Source: Actinomycetota bacterium
GTDB lineage: Bacteria; Actinomycetota; Actinomycetes; Mycobacteriales; Mycobacteriaceae
Length of the DNA: 56,111 nt
NCBI GenBank assembly: GCA_030836785.1
Contig: JAUPLT010000229.1
Location: 1-56,111, forward strand
Reading direction: 5' to 3'
This document shows, piece by piece, positions 5,336 through 19,503 of the stretch. Position numbers and translations under genes: made by a program. The notes beneath the pieces are model-generated. The model was not told the DNA's origin. It worked only from the letters and a program-made list of their open reading frames with translations, and did not search any database. Every line of letters starts with the position of its first letter. The stretch's first letter is position 1.

Positions 5336-8300
5336 GTGGTAGCAAAGTTCGGTGCGCGTGCTGGTGCCGCGGCGTTCGTCCTAGGCCTGTCAGTGGCTGG
5401 GCCGGCAGGGTTTGCCGCGGCCGACACGCCGGATTCCGAATCAGGCTCGGCCCAGGCCGCGGCCGGGGAGTCGGCAGTGCAGACGGCCCCGGCGCGCAGC
5501 ACCCGAGCGAACAAGCCGAGTCGTTCGCGGACCCGCGGCCCCGCCCCCTCGGCAACCTCCGAACGGTTGCCGCGCGAACCGGGGGAGAGGGCCGTCTCAA
5601 CCGGTGATGTCCGGCCGGACAACCCGGCACCTGCTGCTGCCACGCGGCCAGCTGGGCTGACAGCTGCGGCACGCTCATCGGTGTCTGCGCCGACCGCCGC
5701 CGCCACTCGGCGCCCGGTCACCGCTGCTCTGGGTTCCGCGGCCGCGGTCGGCAACACCGACCGCCCAGAGCGCTCGGCGGTAGTGCCGGTGGCGCCCGCC
5801 GCGAGTGTCACCGCGGCCTCCCCGCAGGCGGCGGCAAGCGGGGCAAGCAACTGCGCAGCCTGCTGGGGGGCCGAGGCGCCCTCGATCGCCGCGGCGGTCA
5901 CCACGGCGGTCAACCATGCATTCAATTCGGCGTTCGACTGGCTCGCCAGTCTCCCCGCCAACCCGATCTCCGACCTCGTCGGCGGGGCGCTCGTCCTGAT
6001 CCGGCGGGCATTGTTCCTCGTGCCTGAGGGCGTGACCGTCACCCAGACCACCCCCACGTCGCTGTCGGTGTCGGTGAACACCGGCAGTGTCGCGTACTTC
6101 CGCCATGACGGCACCACCCTTCAGATCTCCGGAGACCCCTGGTTCTTCGGCGCCCAAAGCTATGACGACACCGCCGGACTGGACGTGTCGGTGACCAACA
6201 CCGGCAACGCCGGCTGCGCCGGTATGGTGCTGACCTCCGGCACCGTCAACGGCGACCTGACAACCTCCCAGATCGACTCCATCCGGTTCGGCACGGGTGC
6301 GGCATTCACCGACAAAGTCACCGCATCGGTCTCGGGGGGTCCATTGACCCTGCGCGACGCAGTGCGCGGTCTGACTGGGGTCGAATTGCGCGCACCGGTG
6401 GTCTTGGCCAGCGACGTCGAGATCGATGCCGGAACCAAGAACGCCTTCTTCGGCGGCACCGTCGACGGCACCGCTGAAGGCACGCAGTCCCTGACGGTCA
6501 CCGCGCTGGGCACCACCACCTTCGACGCCGCCGTCGGTGGACAAGTCCCGCTGGCCAGCCTGCTCACCCGAGCCGTCACCCCACTGGACATCCGGCAGTC
6601 GGCCAACACCACGACCATTCCACTGCACTACATGCCGGAGTACTCCACGAGCGGCCAACTCCAGGTCAAGTACGGTATCGACGTCGCGATCGGCGCCAAC
6701 CATTCGCGGACCTTCGTCTTCGACACCGGCGGAAACGGGTTCTTCGCCGGCTACAACCCGGACTACTTCACGGGTGTGACGCTCACCGACGAGCAGGTCG
6801 ACATTGTCTACACGTCCGGCAACTACTACGACGCCGTCGTCGCCAATGCCGTCGTCACCATCGGCCCCGAGGGCGGCCCCCGCGTCTCCACCGTGCGGCC
6901 CGTCCAGATCGGCGCAATCCTGCAGGGCGGCAACCAGTCCGACGGGCAGGTGTTCGACTTCACCAACCCGTTCGCCCCGCCGGTCGACGGACGGTTCTCC
7001 GGTGACTTCGGTGCCGCCTTCGGCGTTCAGCCCAGCGACAATGGCGAGACCGGACTCTCCAGCGTGCTGTTCCAGTTGCCGGGCAACCTTTCCACAGGAT
7101 TCCTGGTTCAGTTGGGGCCCATCGGAATCGATCCGCAGCTGACTGTCGGAATCACCGACGAACTTCGCGACCAGTTCCCCTACGCCATCCCGGTATCGGC
7201 GTTATCCGGCGGCGGTACCTACCCGGTTTCCGGGTATCAGGTTCTCCAGCAGTTCGGGTTCTCCCCGCAGTACTTCGTCTCCTCACCTGAGGGATTGCTG
7301 TATCCCCTTGGCACCGAACAGTTCCAGCAATGCGCGGTCCAGTGCCTGCCCTCGCTGATCGACAGTGGTGCACCGTCGACCAGTGTGCGCCTGCCCGGCG
7401 CACCGACGCCCTTCCCGCTGTCCACCGCGAATAACTCCGCACTGCAACCAGGTTCGACGTTCATCGCGCAGTTCCCGACCACTCAGGGGCGCCCGCCACT
7501 GGAATGGACCTTCGTGGCGGGCAGCATCGGCTCGGTCAACGCGGTGGGCTACGACGACCAGTCGGGCGCTGCGACCACCACCCAGAACGTCAACACCGGA
7601 CTGAACCTCTATAACGGCTACGACGTGATGTTCGACACCCAGAAGCAGGTGATCTGGCTGCGGCCCAACGGCGGTCAGTCGACGGTGAACCTGCAATCGG
7701 TGACCACCACCGGAGACCAGAGCTACCAGCAGAACGCCGTCCTGTCGGGGAGTTACGCCACCGCCTCCGGCGACTTCTCCGTCAGCGGTGTGACCGACCT
7801 CGCCGCCGACACCACCATCAACGCCGGAAGCGGGGCTATCACGTTTTCCGGGACGGTCGACGGACCACACGCGCTGACGGTGAATTCGACGGGGGCAACA
7901 CATTTCGTCCGTGGCGTCGGCCAGCAGATTGCGTTGACGCGCCTCACCACCGATGCCGGTGGATCCACCTCCACTGCCGGTGTCACGACACAGGACGGCC
8001 AGACCTACGGCGACACCGTGACGCTCAACGGCGCCTACCAGGTCAACGACGGGGAGTTCACCGTCGCCGGGGCGGCGACACTGGCCGGTCAGACAAGCAT
8101 CTCGACCACCGGCGGGGATATCACCTTCGTCAGCACGGTGGACGCGACGCCGGGCCAGGGGTTCACGTTGAGGCTGGTCACCGACGGGGGACACACGCAG
8201 CTGAGCGGAGCGGTCGGCGCCGTCAATCCACTCGGCGGCATCGGGATGGCCAATACCGCCGAGCACACCGTCGCGACCGTCACCGCGGCAGGCACCGTCG

Positions 8301-10738
8301 CGGTGAACGGCAGCCTCGGTTACGCCGGATCCTCCGGTCTGTTCATCGGTGACTCCGTCACCGCCGACTTCTCCCACGGCGGTACGATCACCGACTTCAC
8401 CACCAGCGGCGTGGTATTCGAAGGCTCGTCCACGAACTCGACGATCTCGAACTTCACCATCTCCGACAACGTCTACGACGGAATCCAGATCGCCGCGGCC
8501 GCGGGGAGTGTGCCCTACGACTTCACCGGAACTCAGATCTCCGACAACACCATCTACGGCAACTCGGCATTCGGTATCGAGACCCTGGCACCGGTATCGG
8601 GACTGACGATCAGCGGAAACACCATCGGTAAGCAGGGGACGAGCAACCCGTGGGGCTATGTCAGCGACGGGGCCAACGCCCACGGGGTAGTCCTGGCGCC
8701 AGGCACCTACGCCGGTTCCAGCATCAGCGGAAACGTCATCTCCCACAACATGCGCAGCGCCATCTACGCGCCCGGCGGTGTCAAGGGCCTCGACATTTCC
8801 GGAAACGCCCTGAGCGACAACGGAACCCACGGTATCGAGTTCGTCACCGGAGACTTCGCCGGGACCGACATCCAGAACAACGTCATCCGGTCCAACGGTG
8901 CCGATGGAATCTCGCTCGGAGCGGGAATAGGGCAGGGGACACGAACCCCCGGCATCAACCCGTTGGTCGGTTACACCACCGAGGGTGGACGCTACCTCGA
9001 CGCCCACTACGTCCTGCCCTACGCGAACAATCCCGACTTCTACTCCGAGCAGACGCCGCCGCCGGACCCGACGATCCAAATGCGCGTCGGCACCAAACAA
9101 CTCGAGGTCAACCTCGACACCGGCTCGCGTGGACTGTACTTCGACGAAGCCTCGCTGGATCCGAACGTTCTCAGCCAGGGCACCGTCCTGGGGACCGGCC
9201 ACGTCTACCTCAACAGTTCGAACCGGCTGTATTTCGGCGACTGGGTGCAGCTGCCGGTGACGTTCACGCAGTCCTACTTTCAGACAGCCGGCGGCCAGAC
9301 TGACACCAGCCGCAAGGCGGTGGCCACCATGCCGGTGCTCGTGGTGCAGGCGATCGGGGCCTCCACGACTCCCGCCCCTGGGCAGACCCAGGCCAGCACG
9401 ACGTTCAACACCACTATCGACAGCGGATTCGTCACGATCACCAACGGCGCCGGCGATACTCAGCAGGCACCGATCGTGCTCAATCCCAACGACCCCGGTA
9501 CCGGAATCGTGACGATTCCCGGCGGCTACTGGGCCAACTACGCCGACAACGTCGGCAAGCTGGCTCCGGTCGCCAACTTCGGGGTCGGGTTCGACCGCTC
9601 CGGTCAGGGCACCGCCCCCACCGACAACGGGGTCAACCAGGTCTACAACGCGTTCCTGAACCTCACCGAGATGCAGAACGGCACCATGCGGCCGGGGTAT
9701 GTCATGACAGCCCAGGGCGTCACGCTCGGCCTGGACAGCACTGTGTCCGGGTACGCCTACACCGACCTCGCCCCGACCGGGCTGGCCCAGGGCGCCCAGA
9801 CCGCCCCGGACTGGCAACCGGCGACGGGAACCATCACGGCCGGGTCGACGACCTACGGTGTCGGCCAGATCGTCCTCGATATGGGCTACGGAGGCGGAAT
9901 CCTGACCCTGCCCGGCTACGCGCCACCCGGCAGCTTCACCCAGCGCTTCACGGTCAACCTGCTCGACTCGAATGGCGCTGTGCGCTACGACGTGGACCTG
10001 TCCGAGGGCCGGACCAACCTGATGAACCCGGAAAGCATCGACCTGTTCAACCCACTAGCCGGGAACTACTCGCAGAACACTCCACCGCTGAGCCAGCAGT
10101 TCTTCAACACCGGCCGTCCGGCGTTCGCCGGCCTCGACTACCTCTTCGACGCAGGCTCGGGCTATCTGGGCCTTGCCCAAGGGCGGACCCAGCAGGCAGC
10201 GGATGCGCTGGCCTCGGCCAACGGACTCGTTACCCCGGGCTACTACCAGAACGCGACCGCTCCCACGGGGGTCCGCAATCTCACCATCAAGGACAACACC
10301 ATCGCCGATAACGGCGGCGCTGGGGTCGGGGTCAACGGTGCCGGCTCGGTGGGCAACGCCGTCCTCACGAATTCGATCCATTCGAATGTGGGGCAGGGCA
10401 TCTCCCTGACGAATGGGGCCAACGGCGGCCAGCCGGCTCCGGAGTCCGTCGTGGCGAATCGGGTTGCCGACGGGGTCACTGTCCAGGGGACCATGCCGGC
10501 GGTTCCCGGCTACAGCGGAAACTTCACGGTGCAGGTGTTCCGGTCTCCCGCCACGGACGCCGGGAATGTCGAAGGTCGGCAGTATCTCGGCGCCATCCTT
10601 ACTGCCGCGGGTCAATTCCAGGGCCAGCTGCAGGCGACCGGTCTGTTGTCCGGTGACTGGATCACCCTCACCGCAACACCTGTCCAGATCCCCAACAACA
10701 CATCCCAATTCTCAGTACCGGTCCAGATCGAGGTGTAA
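5336..10738 (+). CDS. Giant secreted beta-helix protein with two nested aspartic-protease-like modules
   Basis: About 1800 aa. The GTG at 5336 is preferred over the track's 5318 because GGGAGG lies 8 nt upstream and the N-terminus then aligns with the paralogue next door. Order: Sec signal peptide (GARAGAAAFVLGLSVAGPAG...), Ala/Pro/Arg-rich linker to ~170, conserved block NCAACWG...LIRRALF (~170-230), filamentous-haemagglutinin-like repeats (GTVDGT..SLTVTALGTTTF). A pepsin-type module follows at ~420-780 with VFDTGGNG (D463) and LIDSGAPST (D676), then more repeats (VTTTGDQSYQQN...) and a right-handed PbH1 helix (~1030-1200). A second module (~1205-1625) has NLDTGSRG (D1261) and, at the expected second position, VLDMGYGGG (D1515, DMG not DSG). 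A short PbH1 segment and a C-terminal beta-sandwich end the protein. The module resembles the protease domain of PE_PGRS35/16 (Pec) proteins, but no PE domain is present. Probably cell-surface or secreted. Confidence 0.85.
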   Translation: MVAKFGARAGAAAFVLGLSVAGPAGFAAADTPDSESGSAQAAAGESAVQTAPARSTRANKPSRSRTRGPAPSATSERLPREPGERAVSTGDVRPDNPAPAAATRPAGLTAAARSSVSAPTAAATRRPVTAALGSAAAVGNTDRPERSAVVPVAPAASVTAASPQAAASGASNCAACWGAEAPSIAAAVTTAVNHAFNSAFDWLASLPANPISDLVGGALVLIRRALFLVPEGVTVTQTTPTSLSVSVNTGSVAYFRHDGTTLQISGDPWFFGAQSYDDTAGLDVSVTNTGNAGCAGMVLTSGTVNGDLTTSQIDSIRFGTGAAFTDKVTASVSGGPLTLRDAVRGLTGVELRAPVVLASDVEIDAGTKNAFFGGTVDGTAEGTQSLTVTALGTTTFDAAVGGQVPLASLLTRAVTPLDIRQSANTTTIPLHYMPEYSTSGQLQVKYGIDVAIGANHSRTFVFDTGGNGFFAGYNPDYFTGVTLTDEQVDIVYTSGNYYDAVVANAVVTIGPEGGPRVSTVRPVQIGAILQGGNQSDGQVFDFTNPFAPPVDGRFSGDFGAAFGVQPSDNGETGLSSVLFQLPGNLSTGFLVQLGPIGIDPQLTVGITDELRDQFPYAIPVSALSGGGTYPVSGYQVLQQFGFSPQYFVSSPEGLLYPLGTEQFQQCAVQCLPSLIDSGAPSTSVRLPGAPTPFPLSTANNSALQPGSTFIAQFPTTQGRPPLEWTFVAGSIGSVNAVGYDDQSGAATTTQNVNTGLNLYNGYDVMFDTQKQVIWLRPNGGQSTVNLQSVTTTGDQSYQQNAVLSGSYATASGDFSVSGVTDLAADTTINAGSGAITFSGTVDGPHALTVNSTGATHFVRGVGQQIALTRLTTDAGGSTSTAGVTTQDGQTYGDTVTLNGAYQVNDGEFTVAGAATLAGQTSISTTGGDITFVSTVDATPGQGFTLRLVTDGGHTQLSGAVGAVNPLGGIGMANTAEHTVATVTAAGTVAVNGSLGYAGSSGLFIGDSVTADFSHGGTITDFTTSGVVFEGSSTNSTISNFTISDNVYDGIQIAAAAGSVPYDFTGTQISDNTIYGNSAFGIETLAPVSGLTISGNTIGKQGTSNPWGYVSDGANAHGVVLAPGTYAGSSISGNVISHNMRSAIYAPGGVKGLDISGNALSDNGTHGIEFVTGDFAGTDIQNNVIRSNGADGISLGAGIGQGTRTPGINPLVGYTTEGGRYLDAHYVLPYANNPDFYSEQTPPPDPTIQMRVGTKQLEVNLDTGSRGLYFDEASLDPNVLSQGTVLGTGHVYLNSSNRLYFGDWVQLPVTFTQSYFQTAGGQTDTSRKAVATMPVLVVQAIGASTTPAPGQTQASTTFNTTIDSGFVTITNGAGDTQQAPIVLNPNDPGTGIVTIPGGYWANYADNVGKLAPVANFGVGFDRSGQGTAPTDNGVNQVYNAFLNLTEMQNGTMRPGYVMTAQGVTLGLDSTVSGYAYTDLAPTGLAQGAQTAPDWQPATGTITAGSTTYGVGQIVLDMGYGGGILTLPGYAPPGSFTQRFTVNLLDSNGAVRYDVDLSEGRTNLMNPESIDLFNPLAGNYSQNTPPLSQQFFNTGRPAFAGLDYLFDAGSGYLGLAQGRTQQAADALASANGLVTPGYYQNATAPTGVRNLTIKDNTIADNGGAGVGVNGAGSVGNAVLTNSIHSNVGQGISLTNGANGGQPAPESVVANRVADGVTVQGTMPAVPGYSGNFTVQVFRSPATDAGNVEGRQYLGAILTAAGQFQGQLQATGLLSGDWITLTATPVQIPNNTSQFSVPVQIEV

Positions 10739-10746
10739 CGGGAGCC

Positions 10747-13700
10747 ATGGCGACAAAGCGCAGTACGCGGGTGGGGGCGGCGGCCTTCGCACTGGGAGTT
10801 TCGTTGGCCGGCCCCCAGGTAGCACTGGCCGGTGCCGACAGCCCGGACTCGGATAGTGCCGCCCAACCGGCGGCCCGCGCCGAGGCCGGCGGCGCCGATT
10901 CGGTGCGCTCCCGCGTTCCGACGCAATCGCGGGACGATGCGGGTGCGGCAGAGGCTGCGGCACCGGAGCCGCGGGGTCCGCGGGCGCGGGTGGCTCCACC
11001 CGCCGACCGCAACCCCGCCGAGCGGCGGCGGATAGCAGCCGAGGGGGCCGTCAGGCAACGCATTCCGGTCGCGACAGCGATGTCACCCACAGTGGCGCAG
11101 CCTGCCGCAGCTGCACGCCGCCCCGCGCCATCAGTCGTCGGCTCGCACACACCCATGCCAGTAGGCGGCCCGGCCGTGGCGCCGGGATCCGCAGCCGTCG
11201 AGGCCGGCGCAGCGGGGCCGTCCGCGGTGGCGCCGGGGGCCGCGTCAGGACTGAGCACCGAGTGCGCCGCTTGCTGGGGAACCCAGGCACCGTCGATCGC
11301 TCAGGCGGCCACGACGGTGGTCAACCATCTGTTCAACTCAGCCTTCGACTGGTTGGCCACCTCTCCGGCGAACCCGCTCACCGATCTTCTCGGGGGTGCG
11401 CTGGTGCTGATCCGGCGAACGTTGTTCTTCGTACCCGACGGGGTCACCGCCAGCCAGACCGGGACAGCGCTGACGGTCTCGGTCAATACCGGCAGCGTTG
11501 CCTACCTGCGTCGGGACGGTACCTCGATCGAGGTATCCGGCGACCCGTGGTTCGTGGGCGCCCAGCGATTCGACGCGGCGACCGTGTCCACCGTGGCGGT
11601 CGGCAATCCCGGCAACGCCGGCTGCGCCGGGTTGGCGGTCACCGCCGGCACCGTCAACGCTGACCTGACGACCTCCCAGATCGACGCGATGCGGTTCGGT
11701 TCCGGTGCGGCGTTCAGCGGACAGGTCGACGCCACCGTCGCCGCAGGACTGCTGAGGCTGACCGATGCGGTGCGCGGCCTTCAGGGAGTTCGGCTGGACG
11801 CCTCGGTCGTTCTCGCCAATGACGTGGAAGTCGACGCGGGAACCGGTGATGCGAAGTTCACCGGTACGGTCGATGCAGCCAGCGCCGGCGAGCAATCGCT
11901 GACGGTAACCGCCCTGCGCACAACAACTTTCGACGCCGCCATCGGGGGCCAGGCCGCATTGGCGAGTCTGCTCACCCGGGGTATCGCCCCGATCGCCATC
12001 GAGCAGTCCGAGGACTCGAAAACCATTCCGCTGCATTACCTGCCGGAGTACAACGCGACCGGCCAACCTCTGGTCAAGTACGGAATCGATGTGTCCATCG
12101 GCGACAATCCGGCGCTGATGTACGAATTCGACACCGGCGGTGTCGCATTCTTCGCCGGCTACAACCGGCAGTACTGGAAGGACGTGCCGCTGACGTCGAC
12201 CGGCGTCGCTGAGGTCTATTCGTCGAGCAACTACTACAACGGCGTCGTGTCGAACACGCCCATCACCCTCGGAACGGGCACCCAGACCGTCTCCACCGTG
12301 CAGCCCATCCAGATCGCCGCCATCCTCGCCGGCGGAGTTGCGAACACTGGCACCGTCTTCGACTTCAGCAACCCCGAGGTTCCGCCCGTTGAGGACCGGT
12401 TTTTCGGCGACTTCGGCGCATCCTTCGACACGCTGGCGGTCAACGGCCTCGACACCCCACTTGCCAACCCGCTGTTCCAGCTGCCGGGAAACCTCTCCAG
12501 CGGATTCTTGGTGCAACTCGGACCGATCGGCATCGACCCGCAGTTGACCGTCGGCGTCACCGATGCGTTGCGCGCCCAGTTCCCCTACGCCGTGCCGGTG
12601 CAGGCAGTGGTGGGGGGAGGCACTTACCCCGTCTCGGGACTGCCGGTCCTGGAATGGTTCGGCTTCTCGCCGAGTTACTACGCCCAGGCCCCGGGCGGAT
12701 CGGAACAGACCATCGGAGTGACCCCGTATCCGCAATGCGCGGTGCAGTGCCTGCCCACGCTCATCGACAGTGGGGCCCCCTCGACCGGTATTCGCCTCAA
12801 AGGCGGTGGCGGCGACCCGTATAACGTCGACAACCAACTGAAACCCGGAGTCAGCCTGATCGCGCGATTCCCGACCACCGAAGGACGTCCGCCACTGGAA
12901 TGGAACTTCGTCGCCGGCAACAACGGATCTGTCAATCTCGTCCAATACCAGCAGGGTTCGCTGATCGACAGCCCGGGCCAGAACGTCAACACCGGGCTTA
13001 ACCTCTACAACGCTTTCGACGTCATGTTCGACGTCAAGAAGCAGGTGATCTGGCTGCGTCCCACCGGTGGTGAATCAATGGTGAGACTGAATTCGGTGAC
13101 CACCACCGGAGACCAGACGTACCGGCAGAACGCCACCCTCGCCGGCACGTATTCCACCGGCGGCGGGAATTTCTCGGTGGCTGGTGTGACAACCCTGCTC
13201 GACGACACCGTCATCAACGCCGACGGCGGCGCCGTCCGGTTCTCCGGAACCGTGGACGGTCCGCATTCCCTCGCGGTGAACAGCACCAGCACAACGGAAT
13301 TCGTCCGCGGCGCCGGGGGAGAGGCAGCCCTGAAATCGCTGCGCACCGATACCGGAGGGTCGACCGCGACCTCGGGTGTCATCACCACCGGCGCCCAGAC
13401 CTACAACGACGACGCAGTACTCAACGGGCAGTACCAGGTGGGCGAAGGTTCGTTCGCGGTGGCCCGAAACGTCAGCCTGACCGGCCCGGTCAGCATCGGT
13501 ACTCCCGGCGGCGACATCATCTTCGGGGGTGCCGTTGACGCCCTGCCGGGCAAGGGCTTGACGCTTGCCTTCACCACGGCACCCGGGCGTCACATCGTGC
13601 TCAGCGGTGACGTCGGTGCCACCAACCCCCTCGGGGGCATTGCCGTGACCAACCCGGGCGGCACTGCCGCCGACCCGGCGAGCCTCTCCGCCGCAGGCTC

Positions 13701-14718
13701 GATCACCCTGACCGGAACTCTCGGATTCGCTGCCGCAGAGGGTATCTCGGTCGCCGACCACGTCACGACCACGTTGACCGGCGGGGGACTGGTCCAGGGG
13801 TTCGCCGAAGCCCAGGGCGGCACTGGCGGGATCGGGATATCCCTCGGCGCGTCGAAGGGCTCCCAAATCAGCGGATTCATCGTGAGCAATAACGCCGCCG
13901 ACGGCATCGTGGCCACCGGGGCCGATGACCTCCGCATCGAGAACGTGGCGATCATCAACAACGGCGGAAGCGGCATCGTGGGCCAGTCCGGCAGCATCAC
14001 AGTGGCCGCCTCGTCGGTCACCGGCAATGGGCTCAACGGTATCGAGTTCGACGGCATCAGCAAGGCGGTGGTCACCGACACCACGATCAGCGGGAACGGT
14101 ATCGGTGGGACTCCCGCCAGCGCCGACGGCATCCAACTCAACAACGCGGTCGACGTGACCGTCGGCGGCAGCACGATCAGCGGAAACACCAAGGCCGGAA
14201 TCCGCTCCACCAACTCCGACACCGTTGCGGTATCGAACAATGTCATCACCGGCAACGGCGCCGTTGGTGTGGTCGTCGACGGCGGGGTGGGCAACTCGAT
14301 CCTGTCCAGTTCGATCTACGCCAATGCCCTACTGGCCGCCACGACGGCCGACGGGATCTCATTGCGCAACGGTGGCAACGCTGACCAGGCAGCTCCGGTG
14401 ATCGATACGGCAGCGTTCCTCGATGGCCGCATCGCGGTAACCGGCACACTGACGCTTCCCGACAGGTACACCGGCGACTACCGGATCCAAGTGTTCTTCA
14501 CCCCGTCGACGACCGCGTCCTCGGTCCAGGGCCAGCAACTGTTGGGCACGATCGTCGTGAACTTCGCCGACGAACGGACCAAAGCCTTCTCGGGCGCGTT
14601 CGTTTCCGTGCCGTCCAGCCCCGGCAACTACGTCACCGCCACGGCCACGCCGTCGACCGGCGACCTGAACACCTCGGAGTTCTCCGTTCCGAGGGTGATC
14701 GGGCCGGTGCAGCTCTGA
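10747..14718 (+). CDS. Secreted beta-helix protein with one aspartic-protease-like module (paralogue of upstream gene)
   Basis: 1323 aa, starting at ATG 10747 with CGGGAGCC just upstream and only 8 bp after the previous stop, so co-transcribed with its paralogue. The signal peptide (STRVGAAAFALGVSLAGPQVALA) aligns with that of the upstream protein. The layout is the same without the second protease module: Ala-rich linker, block ECAACWG...LIRRTLFF (~175-235), FHA-like repeats, pepsin-type module (~420-775) with EFDTGGVAF (D462) and LIDSGAPST (D674). Then come repeats (TINAD..VRFSGTVDGPHSL), a PbH1 helix (~1035-1220, units such as VTVGGSTISGNTKAGI) and a C-terminal beta-sandwich (~1225-1323) of the kind that ends many actinobacterial beta-helix surface proteins. 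The spacing between the two catalytic Asp (212) equals that in the first module of the neighbour (213). The paired Cys before the second Asp (QCAVQC) are conserved in both. Confidence 0.87.
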   Translation: MATKRSTRVGAAAFALGVSLAGPQVALAGADSPDSDSAAQPAARAEAGGADSVRSRVPTQSRDDAGAAEAAAPEPRGPRARVAPPADRNPAERRRIAAEGAVRQRIPVATAMSPTVAQPAAAARRPAPSVVGSHTPMPVGGPAVAPGSAAVEAGAAGPSAVAPGAASGLSTECAACWGTQAPSIAQAATTVVNHLFNSAFDWLATSPANPLTDLLGGALVLIRRTLFFVPDGVTASQTGTALTVSVNTGSVAYLRRDGTSIEVSGDPWFVGAQRFDAATVSTVAVGNPGNAGCAGLAVTAGTVNADLTTSQIDAMRFGSGAAFSGQVDATVAAGLLRLTDAVRGLQGVRLDASVVLANDVEVDAGTGDAKFTGTVDAASAGEQSLTVTALRTTTFDAAIGGQAALASLLTRGIAPIAIEQSEDSKTIPLHYLPEYNATGQPLVKYGIDVSIGDNPALMYEFDTGGVAFFAGYNRQYWKDVPLTSTGVAEVYSSSNYYNGVVSNTPITLGTGTQTVSTVQPIQIAAILAGGVANTGTVFDFSNPEVPPVEDRFFGDFGASFDTLAVNGLDTPLANPLFQLPGNLSSGFLVQLGPIGIDPQLTVGVTDALRAQFPYAVPVQAVVGGGTYPVSGLPVLEWFGFSPSYYAQAPGGSEQTIGVTPYPQCAVQCLPTLIDSGAPSTGIRLKGGGGDPYNVDNQLKPGVSLIARFPTTEGRPPLEWNFVAGNNGSVNLVQYQQGSLIDSPGQNVNTGLNLYNAFDVMFDVKKQVIWLRPTGGESMVRLNSVTTTGDQTYRQNATLAGTYSTGGGNFSVAGVTTLLDDTVINADGGAVRFSGTVDGPHSLAVNSTSTTEFVRGAGGEAALKSLRTDTGGSTATSGVITTGAQTYNDDAVLNGQYQVGEGSFAVARNVSLTGPVSIGTPGGDIIFGGAVDALPGKGLTLAFTTAPGRHIVLSGDVGATNPLGGIAVTNPGGTAADPASLSAAGSITLTGTLGFAAAEGISVADHVTTTLTGGGLVQGFAEAQGGTGGIGISLGASKGSQISGFIVSNNAADGIVATGADDLRIENVAIINNGGSGIVGQSGSITVAASSVTGNGLNGIEFDGISKAVVTDTTISGNGIGGTPASADGIQLNNAVDVTVGGSTISGNTKAGIRSTNSDTVAVSNNVITGNGAVGVVVDGGVGNSILSSSIYANALLAATTADGISLRNGGNADQAAPVIDTAAFLDGRIAVTGTLTLPDRYTGDYRIQVFFTPSTTASSVQGQQLLGTIVVNFADERTKAFSGAFVSVPSSPGNYVTATATPSTGDLNTSEFSVPRVIGPVQL

Positions 14719-14732
14719 TCGGTCGGTGAAAT

Positions 14733-16784
14733 CTAGGTTCGGATCTGCCACCCGACCGACGGATCCAGCGCCAGGCTGAGGACGTCGACCGCCTCGAAGG
14801 CACTCATCGGGATGGTGCTGAGTTCCTGCTGAGCAGTCAGGTGATCGGTCCCGGTCCAGCCGTTGCCCATGGCCAACAGCCCGGCTCCGTCTCGTCCCTC
14901 CCCGAACGAGTCGTAGATCACCGCGCCGTGCTGCTGTAGCGCACGCAGGACCACCTGGGTGGCCGGATCGTAGGTTGAGATGTCGAAGTCGGCGCGCAAC
15001 CGGAATACCGTGCCCATCGGGACACCGTCCGGGTTGGTGCCGGTGCCGTCGCCGGCCAGGGCCGGCCAGCTGTGCCCGGTTCCGCGGTCCTTGGCGATGA
15101 CGATGCCCAGCATGTGGTCGATCTCGCCCCGTTCGAGGTCGTCAGGGCGAAGCATCAGCGGCAGATAGGGCAGTTTCGCCGCGTTGGCCGCACCGATCGT
15201 CGGGTAGAACGGCGAACTCATGTCGTAGTGCACGCCGGCTTCGGCGATCCAGGCCGATCCCCACAATGCGGCGTACGCGGCGTTACCCAACGCGTCGAGA
15301 ACGCCGGCGGCCGGCAGTTCCACTCCGTTGGCGACGTTGATCAACTCCTGGGAGATGCAGGTTCCGGTCTGGAACACCAGCAGGTGCCGATCCCAGGCCG
15401 GAACATCGGGCATGCCCTCAACGAGCGGGTAGTCCGGGATGGCGTAGGGGCGGTCGTCGATATTGGGTCCGGTGGTCGAATATCCGCGGTTGAAGATGAC
15501 TGTCTCGGTGGGGTGGTCGGGGCCGACGATGTTGACCGGCATTGTGGCGGAACTTCCCATCCACGGCGTGGTCTGCCATCGGGCTATCAGGGTGCCGCCG
15601 ATCAGATCGGTCCACGTCTGCGACTCCGCAAGGACCGGCAGGGGACTGACGTCGGCGTGGAAGACGGTGTCCGCGGGCATCAGTGTGCAGCCGCAGAACG
15701 TCGACAGATCGCGCACCGGAGCGCCCGCAACGAAGGTGACCATCACCGGTACCAGGACGCTGCCGCCGTAGCCATCCTCGATCGTCACGGTGAACTGATC
15801 TTGCCGGTCGGCCGCCGTCGCGCCGGGGGCAGAGGCGGCGGCGAGGGCTTCCGCACCGGGGGAGTAGGTGAATTCACCCGAGTCGGTCACCGCGACAGCA
15901 CCCTTGGCCGGTGCCGTTGAGGCCAGATAGGTCAGCGGGTCGCCGTTGGGATCCGAGCCGAGAATCCTGCCGGTGAGCACGCCGGTGACCGGATCGGGCG
16001 GGTCGAGGCGAAGTGTCGCAGACGGTGCGTTGTTGAACGGCGCGACGCTCACGCGGACTGTTGTGGTGGCGGTGTGCCCGGCAGTGCCCACCAGGCCGAA
16101 GGTGAGCAGGTTCAGCAATCCCTCGAGCCCGTGGAGGTGGAAGCCGCCACCGGCGTCGCTGGCGGTCACCTCGAAGGAGTCGACGGAATCACTGCGCGCC
16201 AGCATCGGATCGGCGGTGTACGTGTACTGCCCGGACGGGCTGAGCGTCACAGTGCCGTGGGCCGGGGCGCGGGTCACGGCAAGTCCGATGGGGTCGCCGT
16301 CGTGGTCGGTGGCGTCCACTGACCCGCTGACGATCCCGCCGGGTGATTGCCCGGTCTGGATCCCAACGGGTCGCGGAGCGGAGTTGCCCAGCAGTGCTGT
16401 CAGCGGATCGGACCGGGTGACCGCAGCAAGCGGCGGTGTACCCGGGGAGGCCTTCGTCTGAGCCGCGGCAGGGCGCTGGGAGTCCGCAACCCGCTGGACG
16501 GCCGCCGGGGCCGGCTTCGACCCCCGTTGCCGTGGCGGTGCTGCCGTGTGCCGTGCGCCTGAGCCGACGCCCGGGAACGTTTTCGCCTGGCGCGCAGTCG
16601 CCGTGGCCCGGGAACGTTGGTCGGCGGAGCGGACCGCATCGGCTGAGCCGTCGTCAGCCGGATCTGCCGCAGCCACCCCGGTACCGGCAAGAAGCACCGT
16701 CGCCGCTCCGGTGGCGGCCGAAAGGACAGCCCAGCCGACCCCCGCCGCGATCGTCGTGCCGCTGATTCGCCGCCCTGTGAACAT
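14733..16784 (-). CDS. Secreted Ig/cadherin-like repeat protein with C-terminal domain of unknown function
   Basis: About 683 aa. The ATG at 16784 (second Met of the track ORF) is chosen because AAAGGGG sits just upstream. The signal peptide (ISGTTIAAGVGWAVLSAATG... AAADP) is followed by a basic Ala/Pro linker to ~150. Two tandem VCBS/cadherin-like repeats follow: GSVDATDHDGDPIGLAV...GTVTLSPSGQYTYT (~150-255) and GRILGSDPNGDPLTYLAS...SGEFTYSPG (~260-355). The C-terminal ~310 residues (RWQTTPWMG.. to the end) form a separate domain with MLGIVIAKDR..HSWPA, PMGTVFRLRADFDIS and VVLRALQQHGAVIYD. I recall this pattern from other secreted bacterial proteins of unknown function. It converges on the protease/beta-helix pair with a 14-bp gap, which makes a joint surface function possible but unproven. 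Confidence 0.82.
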   Translation of the reverse strand: MFTGRRISGTTIAAGVGWAVLSAATGAATVLLAGTGVAAADPADDGSADAVRSADQRSRATATARQAKTFPGVGSGARHTAAPPRQRGSKPAPAAVQRVADSQRPAAAQTKASPGTPPLAAVTRSDPLTALLGNSAPRPVGIQTGQSPGGIVSGSVDATDHDGDPIGLAVTRAPAHGTVTLSPSGQYTYTADPMLARSDSVDSFEVTASDAGGGFHLHGLEGLLNLLTFGLVGTAGHTATTTVRVSVAPFNNAPSATLRLDPPDPVTGVLTGRILGSDPNGDPLTYLASTAPAKGAVAVTDSGEFTYSPGAEALAAASAPGATAADRQDQFTVTIEDGYGGSVLVPVMVTFVAGAPVRDLSTFCGCTLMPADTVFHADVSPLPVLAESQTWTDLIGGTLIARWQTTPWMGSSATMPVNIVGPDHPTETVIFNRGYSTTGPNIDDRPYAIPDYPLVEGMPDVPAWDRHLLVFQTGTCISQELINVANGVELPAAGVLDALGNAAYAALWGSAWIAEAGVHYDMSSPFYPTIGAANAAKLPYLPLMLRPDDLERGEIDHMLGIVIAKDRGTGHSWPALAGDGTGTNPDGVPMGTVFRLRADFDISTYDPATQVVLRALQQHGAVIYDSFGEGRDGAGLLAMGNGWTGTDHLTAQQELSTIPMSAFEAVDVLSLALDPSVGWQIRT

Positions 16785-16956
16785 CCCCGGCCCCTTTGCT
16801 CGCACTCAATGTAGCGCCTGCGGTGCAGTCACTTATCCAGTTCGAGGCTATTTTCTTGGGTTCGTTGGCGTTCAGTAAAGGTAGCTGGTGGTGTACGTCT
16901 CCCGATCGCCCGCGATGAGCGGCAAGCCGGACTGCCGCCTGAATCTGTCCGCGCTG

Positions 16957-17284: not shown

Positions 17285-17731
17285 CTAGACATGCACGTCA
17301 CGGAGTCCGACCGCGTTGCGCAGTCCGCTGCAGTTGTAACAGCCAACACACCCGACGCAGTCCGTGCACCTCGCGCAGGCCACGCAGCCAACGCACCGAT
17401 TACAGGCGAAGCACGCGACACACGCAGCGCATCTGCGCATGAACAGCGACAGCGCGGTGACCGCACTGGTCGAGATGCCAGCACTCCCTAACGTCACGAC
17501 CGACCCGGCTACCGCAGCACTGCCGGCGGTGGCGATGGAGCCGGCAACCGCCGCGCTGGCCGCGGTCGCGATAGAGCCGGCAACCGCCGCGCTCGCCGCG
17601 GTCGCGATAGAGCCGGCAACCGCCGCGCTCGCCGCAGTAGCGATGGAGCCGGCAACCGCCGCGCTCCCACGGGTAGCAACCGACCGGGAAACCGACCCCG
17701 ACCCGGTCGCCAGGCGCTTGTCCCGGCTCAC
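17285..17731 (-). CDS. Repeat protein with C-terminal (xxC)12 cysteine-triplet array
   Basis: 148 aa in two repetitive halves. After a basic N-terminus (MSRDKRL) come five 12-residue repeats AAVAGSIATAAS (residues ~24-83). After a short linker comes MRRCAACVACFACNRCVGC... in which Cys occupies every third position for 12 triplets, ending YNCSGLRNAVG. A strict xxC period would put all thiols on one face of a three-residue-per-turn coil, as in a metal-thiolate or stacked-Cys rod. Both TGC and TGT are used, so the array is not just a recent DNA slippage. The GTG start has only a weak RBS (GAGAG). It lies on the same strand, downstream of arsR and the CDF pump, so a metal-binding role is possible but is inference. 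No known family is assigned. Confidence 0.55.
   Translation of the reverse strand: MSRDKRLATGSGSVSRSVATRGSAAVAGSIATAASAAVAGSIATAASAAVAGSIATAASAAVAGSIATAGSAAVAGSVVTLGSAGISTSAVTALSLFMRRCAACVACFACNRCVGCVACARCTDCVGCVGCYNCSGLRNAVGLRDVHV
17483..17662 (-). repeat. 36-bp tandem repeat x5 encoding AAVAGSIATAAS
   Basis: Five head-to-tail 36-bp units. On the + strand a unit reads gcgatagagccggcaaccgc... and continues with cgcgctcgccgcggtc. The middle copies are nearly identical, the outer ones have drifted. The period is a multiple of three, so copy-number changes keep the Cys-rich ORF in frame; a strain-variable length is likely. Confidence 0.85.
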
Positions 17732-17818
17732 CAGCCGCTCTCGCGCCGCTGGGGCAGGTGTATCAGCTCCACCTCACCCGGGAACAGGCGTTCAGCGGTG
17801 ATCAGCAGTTTCACCCGA

Positions 17819-18049
17819 TCAGCGTAGGGCCTGGCGGTGCTCCGCCGGGTAGGCATGGACAATCGCGCTGGCCAGCTTGGGCACTGCATGGGTCAGGATC
17901 TGCTCCGCCTCGTGCGCGGCCGACCCGTCGTCGTCGGCGGCGTCGAACACCCGGGTCGTCACATCAACGAGAAGCTGCTCGAACGGGCCGGGCTCCCAAA
18001 GTCTTGCCGACCCCACCCGGGAACCGGGGTTCGCCGGTGACTGGAGCAC
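17819..18049 (-). pseudogene. Degenerate duplicate of the 3' end of the adjacent CDF efflux gene
   Basis: The 76-aa frame ends AAHEAEQILTHAVPKLASAI followed by VHAYPAEHR, which matches the C-terminus of the neighbouring CDF protein (IAHEAEHTLTHAVPKL... VHAYPGKHR). The part upstream of ~EQLLVDV has no CDF similarity and no TM helices, so the transporter body is absent. Similarity extends into the DNA 3' of each gene on the minus strand (gggtaggcatggac and cacccggga motifs occur beside both). This points to an old segmental tandem duplication followed by deletion. Translation as a 76-aa peptide is unlikely. Confidence 0.6.
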
Positions 18050-18061
18050 CCACCCAGTATT

Positions 18062-19099
18062 TCAGGCTCCGACACTGCGGTGTTTTCCTGGGTAGGCATG
18101 GACGAGCGCGCTGGTGAGTTTGGGCACGGCGTGGGTGAGTGTGTGTTCGGCTTCGTGCGCGATCCGGTGAGCATCGGTGATGCTGGTCGCCGGGTCGATA
18201 TCAAGTTCTGCCTCGGCATGGAGACGGTGGCCGATCCAGCGCATCCTGACGCTCCGCACGCCGGTGACTCCCGGTTCGGCGGCCAGTGCGGCTTCGGCAG
18301 CATCAACCAGTTGGGGGTCTACTCCGTCCATCAGACGGCGGAAGATGTCGCGAGCAACGGTACGCAAGATCGCGAGGATGGCTACGGTGATCAGCAGCCC
18401 GACAATCGGGTCGGCCAGGGGAAAGCCAAGAGCAACCCCGGCAGCCCCGGCGACGACCGCCAGCGAGGTGAGTCCGTCGGTGCGGGCATGCAATCCGTCG
18501 GCGATCAGGGCTGCCGAGCCGATGCGCCGGCCAACCCGGATGCGGTAGATCGCGACAAGTTCGTTGCCCACAAAGCCAACAAAACCGGCGGCGGCGACCC
18601 AGCCGACATAACCGACCTGTGCCGGATCGGCGAGTCGCCGGAAGGACTCCGCACCGGCGACGACGGCGGACAGGGCGATCATCGCCACCACGAAGAGTCC
18701 GGCTATATCCTCGGCTCGTCCGAACCCGTAGGTGTACCGACGGGTGGCGGGCTTGGTGCTGATTGCGAACGCGATCCACAGTGGCACAGCGGTGAGGGCA
18801 TCGGCCACGTTGTGGATGGAGTCGGCCAGCAGGGCCACCGACCCGGAAATCGCGACGATCACGAACTGGGCGAGCGCGGTCACCCCGAGTGCCAGCAGGC
18901 TTATCTTTACCGCCCGGATTCCGGCAGCGCTGGACTGCAGGGCATCGTCGATGCTGTCAGCCGCGTCGTGGCTGTGCGGGAGGAATACCTCGCGGAGCGC
19001 GGCGAGTGGGCCATGGTCGCCATGGTCGTGGTCATGGTCATGGTGGTGATGCGCATGGTTCTCGGGGCCTCGGGGTGCAATCCGGGATTCGTGAGTCAT
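18062..19099 (-). CDS. Cation diffusion facilitator (CDF) metal efflux protein
   Basis: 345 aa. The His-rich N-terminus (HAHHHHDHDHDHGDH) is a cytoplasmic metal-collecting tail. Six TM helices follow with the CDF signature SVALLADSIHNVADA and the second metal half-site in TM5 (LIADGLHARTDGL, the HxxxD position). The C-terminal ferredoxin-like domain carries HRLHAEAELDIDP and HEAEHTLTH. The family exports Zn2+, Cd2+, Co2+, Fe2+ or Ni2+ in exchange for protons; the His/Asp site suggests Zn/Co/Cd, but the metal is not certain. It overlaps arsR by 4 bp (ATGA), so the pump and its metal sensor are one operon. Confidence 0.92.
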   Translation of the reverse strand: MTHESRIAPRGPENHAHHHHDHDHDHGDHGPLAALREVFLPHSHDAADSIDDALQSSAAGIRAVKISLLALGVTALAQFVIVAISGSVALLADSIHNVADALTAVPLWIAFAISTKPATRRYTYGFGRAEDIAGLFVVAMIALSAVVAGAESFRRLADPAQVGYVGWVAAAGFVGFVGNELVAIYRIRVGRRIGSAALIADGLHARTDGLTSLAVVAGAAGVALGFPLADPIVGLLITVAILAILRTVARDIFRRLMDGVDPQLVDAAEAALAAEPGVTGVRSVRMRWIGHRLHAEAELDIDPATSITDAHRIAHEAEHTLTHAVPKLTSALVHAYPGKHRSVGA

Positions 19100-19503
19100 G
19101 CGCTGCGCCCGTCCTTGCGCTTCCGTTCGTGCAGGACGGCGAGTTCGCCGGTGTCGCGATGGTGCCCGGGTATGCCCGGCCCGGCATGCTCGGCGTTGAA
19201 CACCGCATCGGAGACGAGTTGCCGGATGTGGTCGTTGTCCACGCTGTAGTAGATGGTGGTGCCGTCGCGGCGGGTGTGCACCAGTCGTGCCATGCGTAAC
19301 TTGGCCAGGTGCTGCGACACGCTGGGCGCAGGTTTTCCGACATGAGCCGCAAGGTCGCCAACGGACAACTCACGGGCAACGAGTGCCCACAGAATCTGAA
19401 CCCGTGTGGCGTCGGCCAGCATCCGGAAGACCTCAACCACCAGATCGACCTGGTCGTCGGGGAGCCGCCGAGTGCAAGCTCCACTATCTGCATTCATATG
19501 CAC
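19096..19503 (-). CDS. ArsR/SmtB-family metal-sensing repressor
   Basis: 135 aa winged-helix regulator. VFRMLADATRVQILWAL opens the fold, LSVGDLAAHVGKPAPSVSQH is the recognition helix region, and RDGTTIYYSVDNDHIRQLV is the wing. The last helix DNDHIRQLVSDAVFNAEHA followed by HH has Asp/His at the alpha-5 positions that bind metal in NmtR/SmtB-type sensors. No CxC motif of ArsR/CadC type is seen, which fits a Zn/Ni/Co sensor. The start is GTG 19503, or the ATG six bases on. It overlaps the CDF gene by 4 bp and most likely represses its own operon until metal binds. Confidence 0.9.
   Translation of the reverse strand: MHMNADSGACTRRLPDDQVDLVVEVFRMLADATRVQILWALVARELSVGDLAAHVGKPAPSVSQHLAKLRMARLVHTRRDGTTIYYSVDNDHIRQLVSDAVFNAEHAGPGIPGHHRDTGELAVLHERKRKDGRSA
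19489..19502. promoter_or_regulatory. Candidate ArsR operator over the arsR start codon
   Basis: The inverted repeat TGCAT-TCAT-ATGCA spans the arsR start region, followed by CATAGTA. ArsR/SmtB repressors bind short AT-richer palindromes around the start or -10 of their own gene, and this is the only such site in a GC-rich neighbourhood. A site this close to the start would require a leaderless or very short transcript. Not proven. Confidence 0.35.

Follow-up and report, generated by a model that had tools for sequence, protein, structure and literature searches.

What kind of protein places a cysteine at every third residue, twelve times in succession, and where would these thiols lie once the chain has folded? 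The question is raised by a short gene in the stretch of DNA analysed here (56,111 nucleotides in all, hereafter the window). The first-pass annotation had pictured the array as a three-residue helix with its thiols aligned on one outer face. Register statistics, together with two AlphaFold models and their comparison with the PDB, favour instead a beta-solenoid of 12 residues per coil, and at a fixed point in this solenoid the core residues would change from Ser/Thr/Val to Cys alone with the register kept, in a small, conserved and probably expressible family.

The gene and its coding status

The gene is located on the minus strand at 17285–17731, from a GTG start codon (17731–17729) to a stop codon (17287–17285). 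Its open reading frame and translation, which reads MSRDKRLATGSGSVSRSVATRGSAAVAGSIATAAS...SAVTALSLFMRRCAACVACFACNRCVGCVACARCTDCVGCVGCYNCSGLRNAVGLRDVHV, and its conserved relatives define a two-part repeat/Cys protein of 148 amino acids (148 codons). The GTG start is backed by the nearest relative, locus L058, where the N-terminus is MSRN compared with VSRD here, and direct reading of the sequence places a candidate ribosome-binding site, GAGAG, 6 nt 5' of the GTG (17738–17742, minus strand). Inspection by eye recognised no signal peptide in the 148-residue protein.

The N-terminal repeat half (residues 12–98; 17438–17698, minus strand) consists of AAVAGS and IATAxS hexads that form a 12-residue unit, with S, T or V at every third position and a less regular linker at its end. 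It is Ala-rich and hydrophobic (GRAVY 1.36), its length differs among family members, and at the DNA level Tandem Repeats Finder reports a 36-bp tandem unit at 17505–17666 with 91% matches, which bears out the repeat half described in the first-pass annotation. The Cys tract follows at residues 99–134 (17330–17437, minus strand) and translates as 12 xxC triplets without a stop: RRC-AAC-VAC-FAC-NRC-VGC-VAC-ARC-TDC-VGC-VGC-YNC. These are exactly the triplets first quoted, and the strict period of three stands; the interval originally assigned to them, 17285–17420, is shifted, since it omits the first two triplets and takes in the C-terminal tail and the stop codon. The tail itself, SGLRNAVGLRDVHV (residues 135–148; 17288–17329, minus strand), is a putative C-terminal cap, conserved in the family and with the lowest pN/pS in the gene. 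Across the six frames of the window the 12-triplet tract is the sole run of at least four xxC triplets, and the longest run was 2–4 in 60 sequences drawn from a first-order Markov model with matched composition and length.

The combination of an AAVAGS/IATAGS half, at least 10 in-register xxC triplets and a GLRxxVG tail is found in the window protein and in 78 further sequences, and codon analysis of these 79 sequences found no stop in the sense frame in any of them. The sense frame has a pN/pS of 0.37, compared with 0.56 or more in each of the other frames; taken by part, its values are 0.38 in the Cys tract and 0.33 in the tail, where the five other frames all reach at least 0.52. Homologues that keep the xxC period, which had been proposed as a check, are present, and synonymous sites change faster than amino-acid sites. 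Because TGC and TGT are both in use for Cys (275 and 64 codons, respectively, in 27 sequences), the period is preserved at the protein level. That the frame is spurious or non-coding, the true gene being on the opposite strand at 17364–17801 (+), can be practically dismissed: this frame is open in the window and has its third codon positions in common with the sense frame, but across the Cys and tail part stops interrupt the phase-matched opposite frame in 44 of the 79 relatives, and its pN/pS is 0.56 against 0.37, so a better coding signal on that strand, which the first-pass annotation had named as grounds for refutation, was not found. Judged by its sequence evolution, the minus-strand reading frame is a genuine conserved protein-coding gene.

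Most Cys of the tract are invariant or near-invariant in the 79-sequence alignment, and the glycines of GCVGC and the GL...G of the tail are invariant as well. Most members have 12 Cys by count and some have more; the second Cys is missing in Actinomycetospora and in distant members, and one or two Cys are missing in Pseudonocardia, leaving 10–11. Since non-mycobacterial members often lack the second Cys, with 10–11 in total, strict pairing, whether as disulfides or as four-thiol sites per coil, is not conserved, and because the missing Cys of these outgroups are not obviously paired with one another, they are evidence against strictly paired disulfides.

A single register through both halves and the predicted fold

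The Ser, Thr and Val positions of the N-terminal half share the phase of the Cys positions. Ser in the repeat half keeps the Cys phase modulo 3 in 79/79 sequences and modulo 6 in 71/79, and 31 of the 32 Cys found upstream of the tract are at the same mod-3 phase, 4 of these coming from an interrupted tract in locus L063. Charged or bulky residues occupy the Cys-register phase in 26 of 2153 cases (1.2%), compared with 212 of 2164 (9.8%) and 155 of 2158 (7.2%) at the other two phases, counts that are drawn from related sequences and are therefore not independent events. By this alignment-based evidence, Cys in the Cys half takes the place of S, T or V at every third, bulk-excluding position. We regard the continuity of the register and the exclusion of charged or bulky residues from it as established, as are coding and conservation, and the counts are the strongest model-free support for the view that every third residue is probably buried and that the two halves form one continuous structure.

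AlphaFold2, run on the whole protein with the 79 sequences, predicts strands every 6 residues through both halves, with pLDDT mostly 72–84 outside the linker and termini (mean 71) and a poorly predicted linker at about residues 84–96; the Cys half modelled alone gives a pLDDT of 77. Mean pLDDT across the models is 71–77, and pTM is about 0.5. In the PDB the whole-protein model is best matched, according to VIA-align, by the Tenebrio antifreeze protein 1l1i (Z 6.5, 84/84 residues, model residues 12–95) and the Cys-half model by the beetle antifreeze protein 1ezg (Z 5.9, rmsd 2.4, 59/59 residues; next unrelated chain Z 4.4), scores of 5.9–6.5 that are modest, as Z 6 is within the range of common arrangements. 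Foldseek against the PDB returned E-values that are not significant for both models. The inner residues of the beetle antifreeze protein are C2, S5, C8 and A11 (PMC8038014), and a 12-residue coil of this kind has a core residue at every third position, as the family shows. Because the models are 12-residue-per-coil beta-solenoids best matched by the beetle antifreeze protein, with inward residues at every third position, the thiols probably line a narrow solenoid core; both the solenoid and its inward thiols are read from the models.

The explanation to which we give slightly better than even weight is therefore a narrow beta-solenoid with coils of about 12 residues, the last three of them filled in the core by Cys alone, with a cap at the end and the thiols acting inside as cross-links or as a soft-metal site. 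Both halves would fold as one rod with every third residue inward, as in the beetle antifreeze protein. The N-terminal coils would present V, S, T and S at the core positions, and the last three coils only Cys, with a stack of thiols, about four from each coil, running along the axis. At its end the solenoid would be closed by the conserved SGLRNAVGLRDVH tail (the cap, also given as CSGLRNAVGLRDVH). The variable-length repeat half may then act as a stalk and the Cys coils as a structural module or cap, in which, to judge only from the modelled solenoid, the thiol core would lock or functionalise the rod end through partial disulfides or a shared soft-metal site rather than serve for surface display. 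The outer positions are more hydrophobic than is usual in a soluble rod, which counts against this solenoid reading. If the model is true, it accounts for the existence of strict xxC arrays in this family and perhaps also in phages, and the protein becomes a natural case in which to ask whether disulfides or metal hold a core made only of thiols; such an unusual sulphur-lined protein is a candidate for metal binding or cross-linking.

Competing readings and the genomic neighbourhood

A minority possibility that deserves weight, and that takes up the metal idea of the first-pass annotation, is a metallothionein-like metal store, in which clustered thiolates of the Cys tract would bind several ions of Cu(I), Zn or Cd and the fold would be secondary. 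It would fit the density of 12 Cys in 34 residues, the CxxC spacing, which suits soft metals, and thiols that are probably reduced and cytoplasmic given that no signal peptide was seen by eye. In the window, a CDF cation-efflux transporter gene (18062–19099, minus strand) and an overlapping gene for an ArsR/SmtB-family metalloregulator (19096–19503, minus strand), both recognised by family match, adjoin upstream on the same strand. However, this neighbourhood is not conserved: the CDF gene is beside the Cys gene in no relative fetched and ArsR gave only a weak match in L085, so a metal operon was rejected, and the main contexts are instead a succinate dehydrogenase/fumarate reductase operon and an SDR gene. 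Moreover, no metallothionein family in Pfam or NCBIfam matched, and a metallothionein needs neither a strict period over three coils nor an in-register repeat half. MymT, the mycobacterial metallothionein, is small and Cys-rich; unlike the window protein, it has neither a repeat half nor a period-3 register. A minus-strand fragment between the transporter and the Cys gene, HEAEQILTHAVPKLASAIVHAYP (17819–18049), is 75% identical over 28 amino acids to the C-terminus of the CDF transporter and, from this identity, is a partial duplication or a pseudogene remnant.

The contexts found in relatives depend on the clade. In one mycobacterial clade (20 loci, support 95/85) the gene is flanked by sdhB and an acyl-CoA dehydrogenase gene, in many cases within tens of bases, and the neighbour families were confirmed in L048. 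This placement was recorded at L041, L046–L048, L050, L052, L055, L057, L060, L061, L073, L078, L079, L090, L100 and L104. In another group the gene comes immediately before an SDR gene, and for several members an oligopeptide ABC transporter precedes the Cys gene. Being clade-specific, these contexts do not define function; the reproducible sdhB/acyl-CoA dehydrogenase placement is nevertheless a first handle on the cellular role. Downstream in the window is an Rv1893-like gene (PF23706; 16957–17193, minus strand, by family match), which also adjoins L058; apart from this gene and, further downstream, the Big_9 gene and the large protein after it, this nearest relative has no neighbouring genes in common with the window. 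The Big_9/cadherin-domain protein (14733–16805, minus strand) adjoins two related large proteins (10747–14718 and 5843–8734, both plus strand; 55% identical over 993 amino acids), and relatives of the 10747–14718 protein and of the Big_9 protein also adjoin the Cys-array gene of L058.

Somewhat less probable than the metal store is that AlphaFold has produced the solenoid as an artefact and that the protein is disordered, an amyloid-like aggregate or membrane-packed, with a Cys tract that only cross-links chains. AlphaFold2 is known to be biased to solenoids and tends toward confident false beta-solenoids for perfect or near-perfect repeats (PMC11795689), and the hydrophobic, Ala-rich composition of the repeat half points the same way. 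Against this, charged residues are kept from every third position in a burial-like pattern that is independent of the models, and divergence between species sets the repeats apart from the perfect artificial repeats by which AlphaFold2 is misled. The confidence of the models here is itself moderate.

A more specific form of the inward-thiol solenoid, which we consider unlikely, would place one metal in a four-thiolate site in each Cys coil, giving a linear soft-metal stack spaced about 4.8 Å apart in a protein that one clade would make together with succinate dehydrogenase/fumarate reductase. To our knowledge there is no solved structure with a linear stack of metal-thiolate centres inside a beta-solenoid.

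Two further readings carry little probability. A single helix of three residues per turn (polyproline-II or 3-10 like) with all thiols on one exposed face agrees with the strict period of 3, but Pro is absent, Gly does not follow a collagen-like pattern, a 12-residue unit in the same register is evident in the repeat half, and both AlphaFold models show beta coils; we hold it to be very improbable. Slightly more doubtful still is a precursor peptide for post-translational thioether chemistry on Ser/Thr repeats and a Cys tract. A Ser/Thr-rich half does adjoin a Cys-rich half, and an SDR gene or ABC transporter is co-directional in one clade, but no modification enzyme was found among the subset of neighbour proteins scanned and the neighbourhoods vary by clade.

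Distribution of the family and its resemblance to known systems

Of 61 related genomes, 24 contain relatives, nearly all of them in the same genus, and a paralogue with 73% identity is present in the same genome (G000:C195:3141-3536). One genome collection gave 194 confirmed matching stretches, from which 80 named loci were kept, mostly Mycobacterium/Mycolicibacterium with Pseudonocardia and Actinomycetospora in addition; the distant members L117 and L118, from another family of the same phylum, have a diverged tail. Low-complexity matches were excluded: weak ones in the repeat half alone, and microsatellite frames with (VGC)n or (TGC)n, of which L025, L139 and L144 are examples. In these three loci, which come from other actinobacteria, DNA resembling a TGC/TGT microsatellite translates as (TGC)n, (VGC)n or (SQC)n, and such frames can pass for xxC arrays in profile searches. 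A mobile origin was rejected, as tblastn of plasmids and phages with the window protein gave no match and a viral scan gave only compositional xxC relatives.

The first-pass annotation knew of no family like this one, and that is upheld in part: no Pfam family matched the whole protein or its Cys part at E<=1 (PF02420, the Hexapep model of bacterial left-handed beta-helix proteins and the metallothioneins included), NCBIfam and PDB sequence searches gave no match, and the literature searched contained no paper on the two-part family or on the general class of period-3 Cys arrays. As a two-part protein family of actinobacteria it is undescribed. The xxC motif is not unique, because strict arrays of such triplets, and longer ones, are known from phage proteins (PHROG_15341).

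Among known structures the closest likeness is to the hyperactive antifreeze protein of beetles (Tenebrio/Dorcus; PF02420, 1EZG/1L1I), the best PDB structural match of both models, which likewise has a 12-residue repeat and whose every third residue points inward, as is predicted for the window protein. It differs in having two inward Cys per coil (PMC8038014) against up to four predicted core Cys in the window protein, which is bacterial, does not match PF02420 in sequence, shows no signal peptide to the eye, and possesses a separate Cys-free half. The outward TCT (TxT) ice-binding array of the beetle protein is absent: residues next to Cys are mostly V/I/L/A and A/G/D/N/R, rarely T, and where the repeat half has Thr, this residue occupies the in-register (core) position. 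The INpros of the fungal family Mortierellaceae are regular solenoids with Cys toward the C-terminal coils and a proposed covalent disulfide cap (PMC13288671, PMC12978214). This concentration of Cys resembles that of the window protein, but INpros are ice nucleators with 16-residue coils, six Cys near the C-terminus and unrelated sequence. MfpA, a mycobacterial pentapeptide-repeat protein and narrow beta-solenoid, is among the weak Foldseek matches to the models; it differs in its period of 5 and its Leu/Phe core, and the window protein has no Pfam match. A CPR-like treble-clef protein (L143:286-2151:-) has a GC[VI]xLR motif in common with the tail but was set aside as it has no strict xxC array. 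Its two [GA]CV[NG]LRHKxYxIxNKxY motifs resemble the CVGLR tail and are possibly a common solenoid cap.

The phage proteins of PHROG_15341 carry strict xxC triplets like those of the Cys tract, and members occur in the Campylobacter phages CP220/CPt10/CP21, Vibrio phage 1.238, Acidovorax phage AP1 and others. Only residues 101–137 of the window protein match them (E 4.6e-6), by a profile that also picks TGC/TGT microsatellite-like frames in other genomes, and hhalign of the family against L134 gives 97% probability over 43 columns. Common ancestry is unproven because composition alone can yield such scores, and the phage arrays differ in being longer and N/D/K-rich, without the AAVAGS/IATAGS half and without the SGLRNAVGLRDVH tail. 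A 'TNFR-Cys' protein of a giant virus ranked first in a viral structure library (E 5e-5), where a protein from a Campylobacter phage matched as well. The words antifreeze, CXXC and hexapeptide are all absent from the Campylobacter phage genome paper. Long strict xxC arrays were observed in L134–L136 and in the phages NC_027997.1 (CP220), MG592604.1 and OM049504.1, several of them annotated 'insect antifreeze protein', and one viral contig carries three tandem xxC-array genes (L136, 4998–6083).
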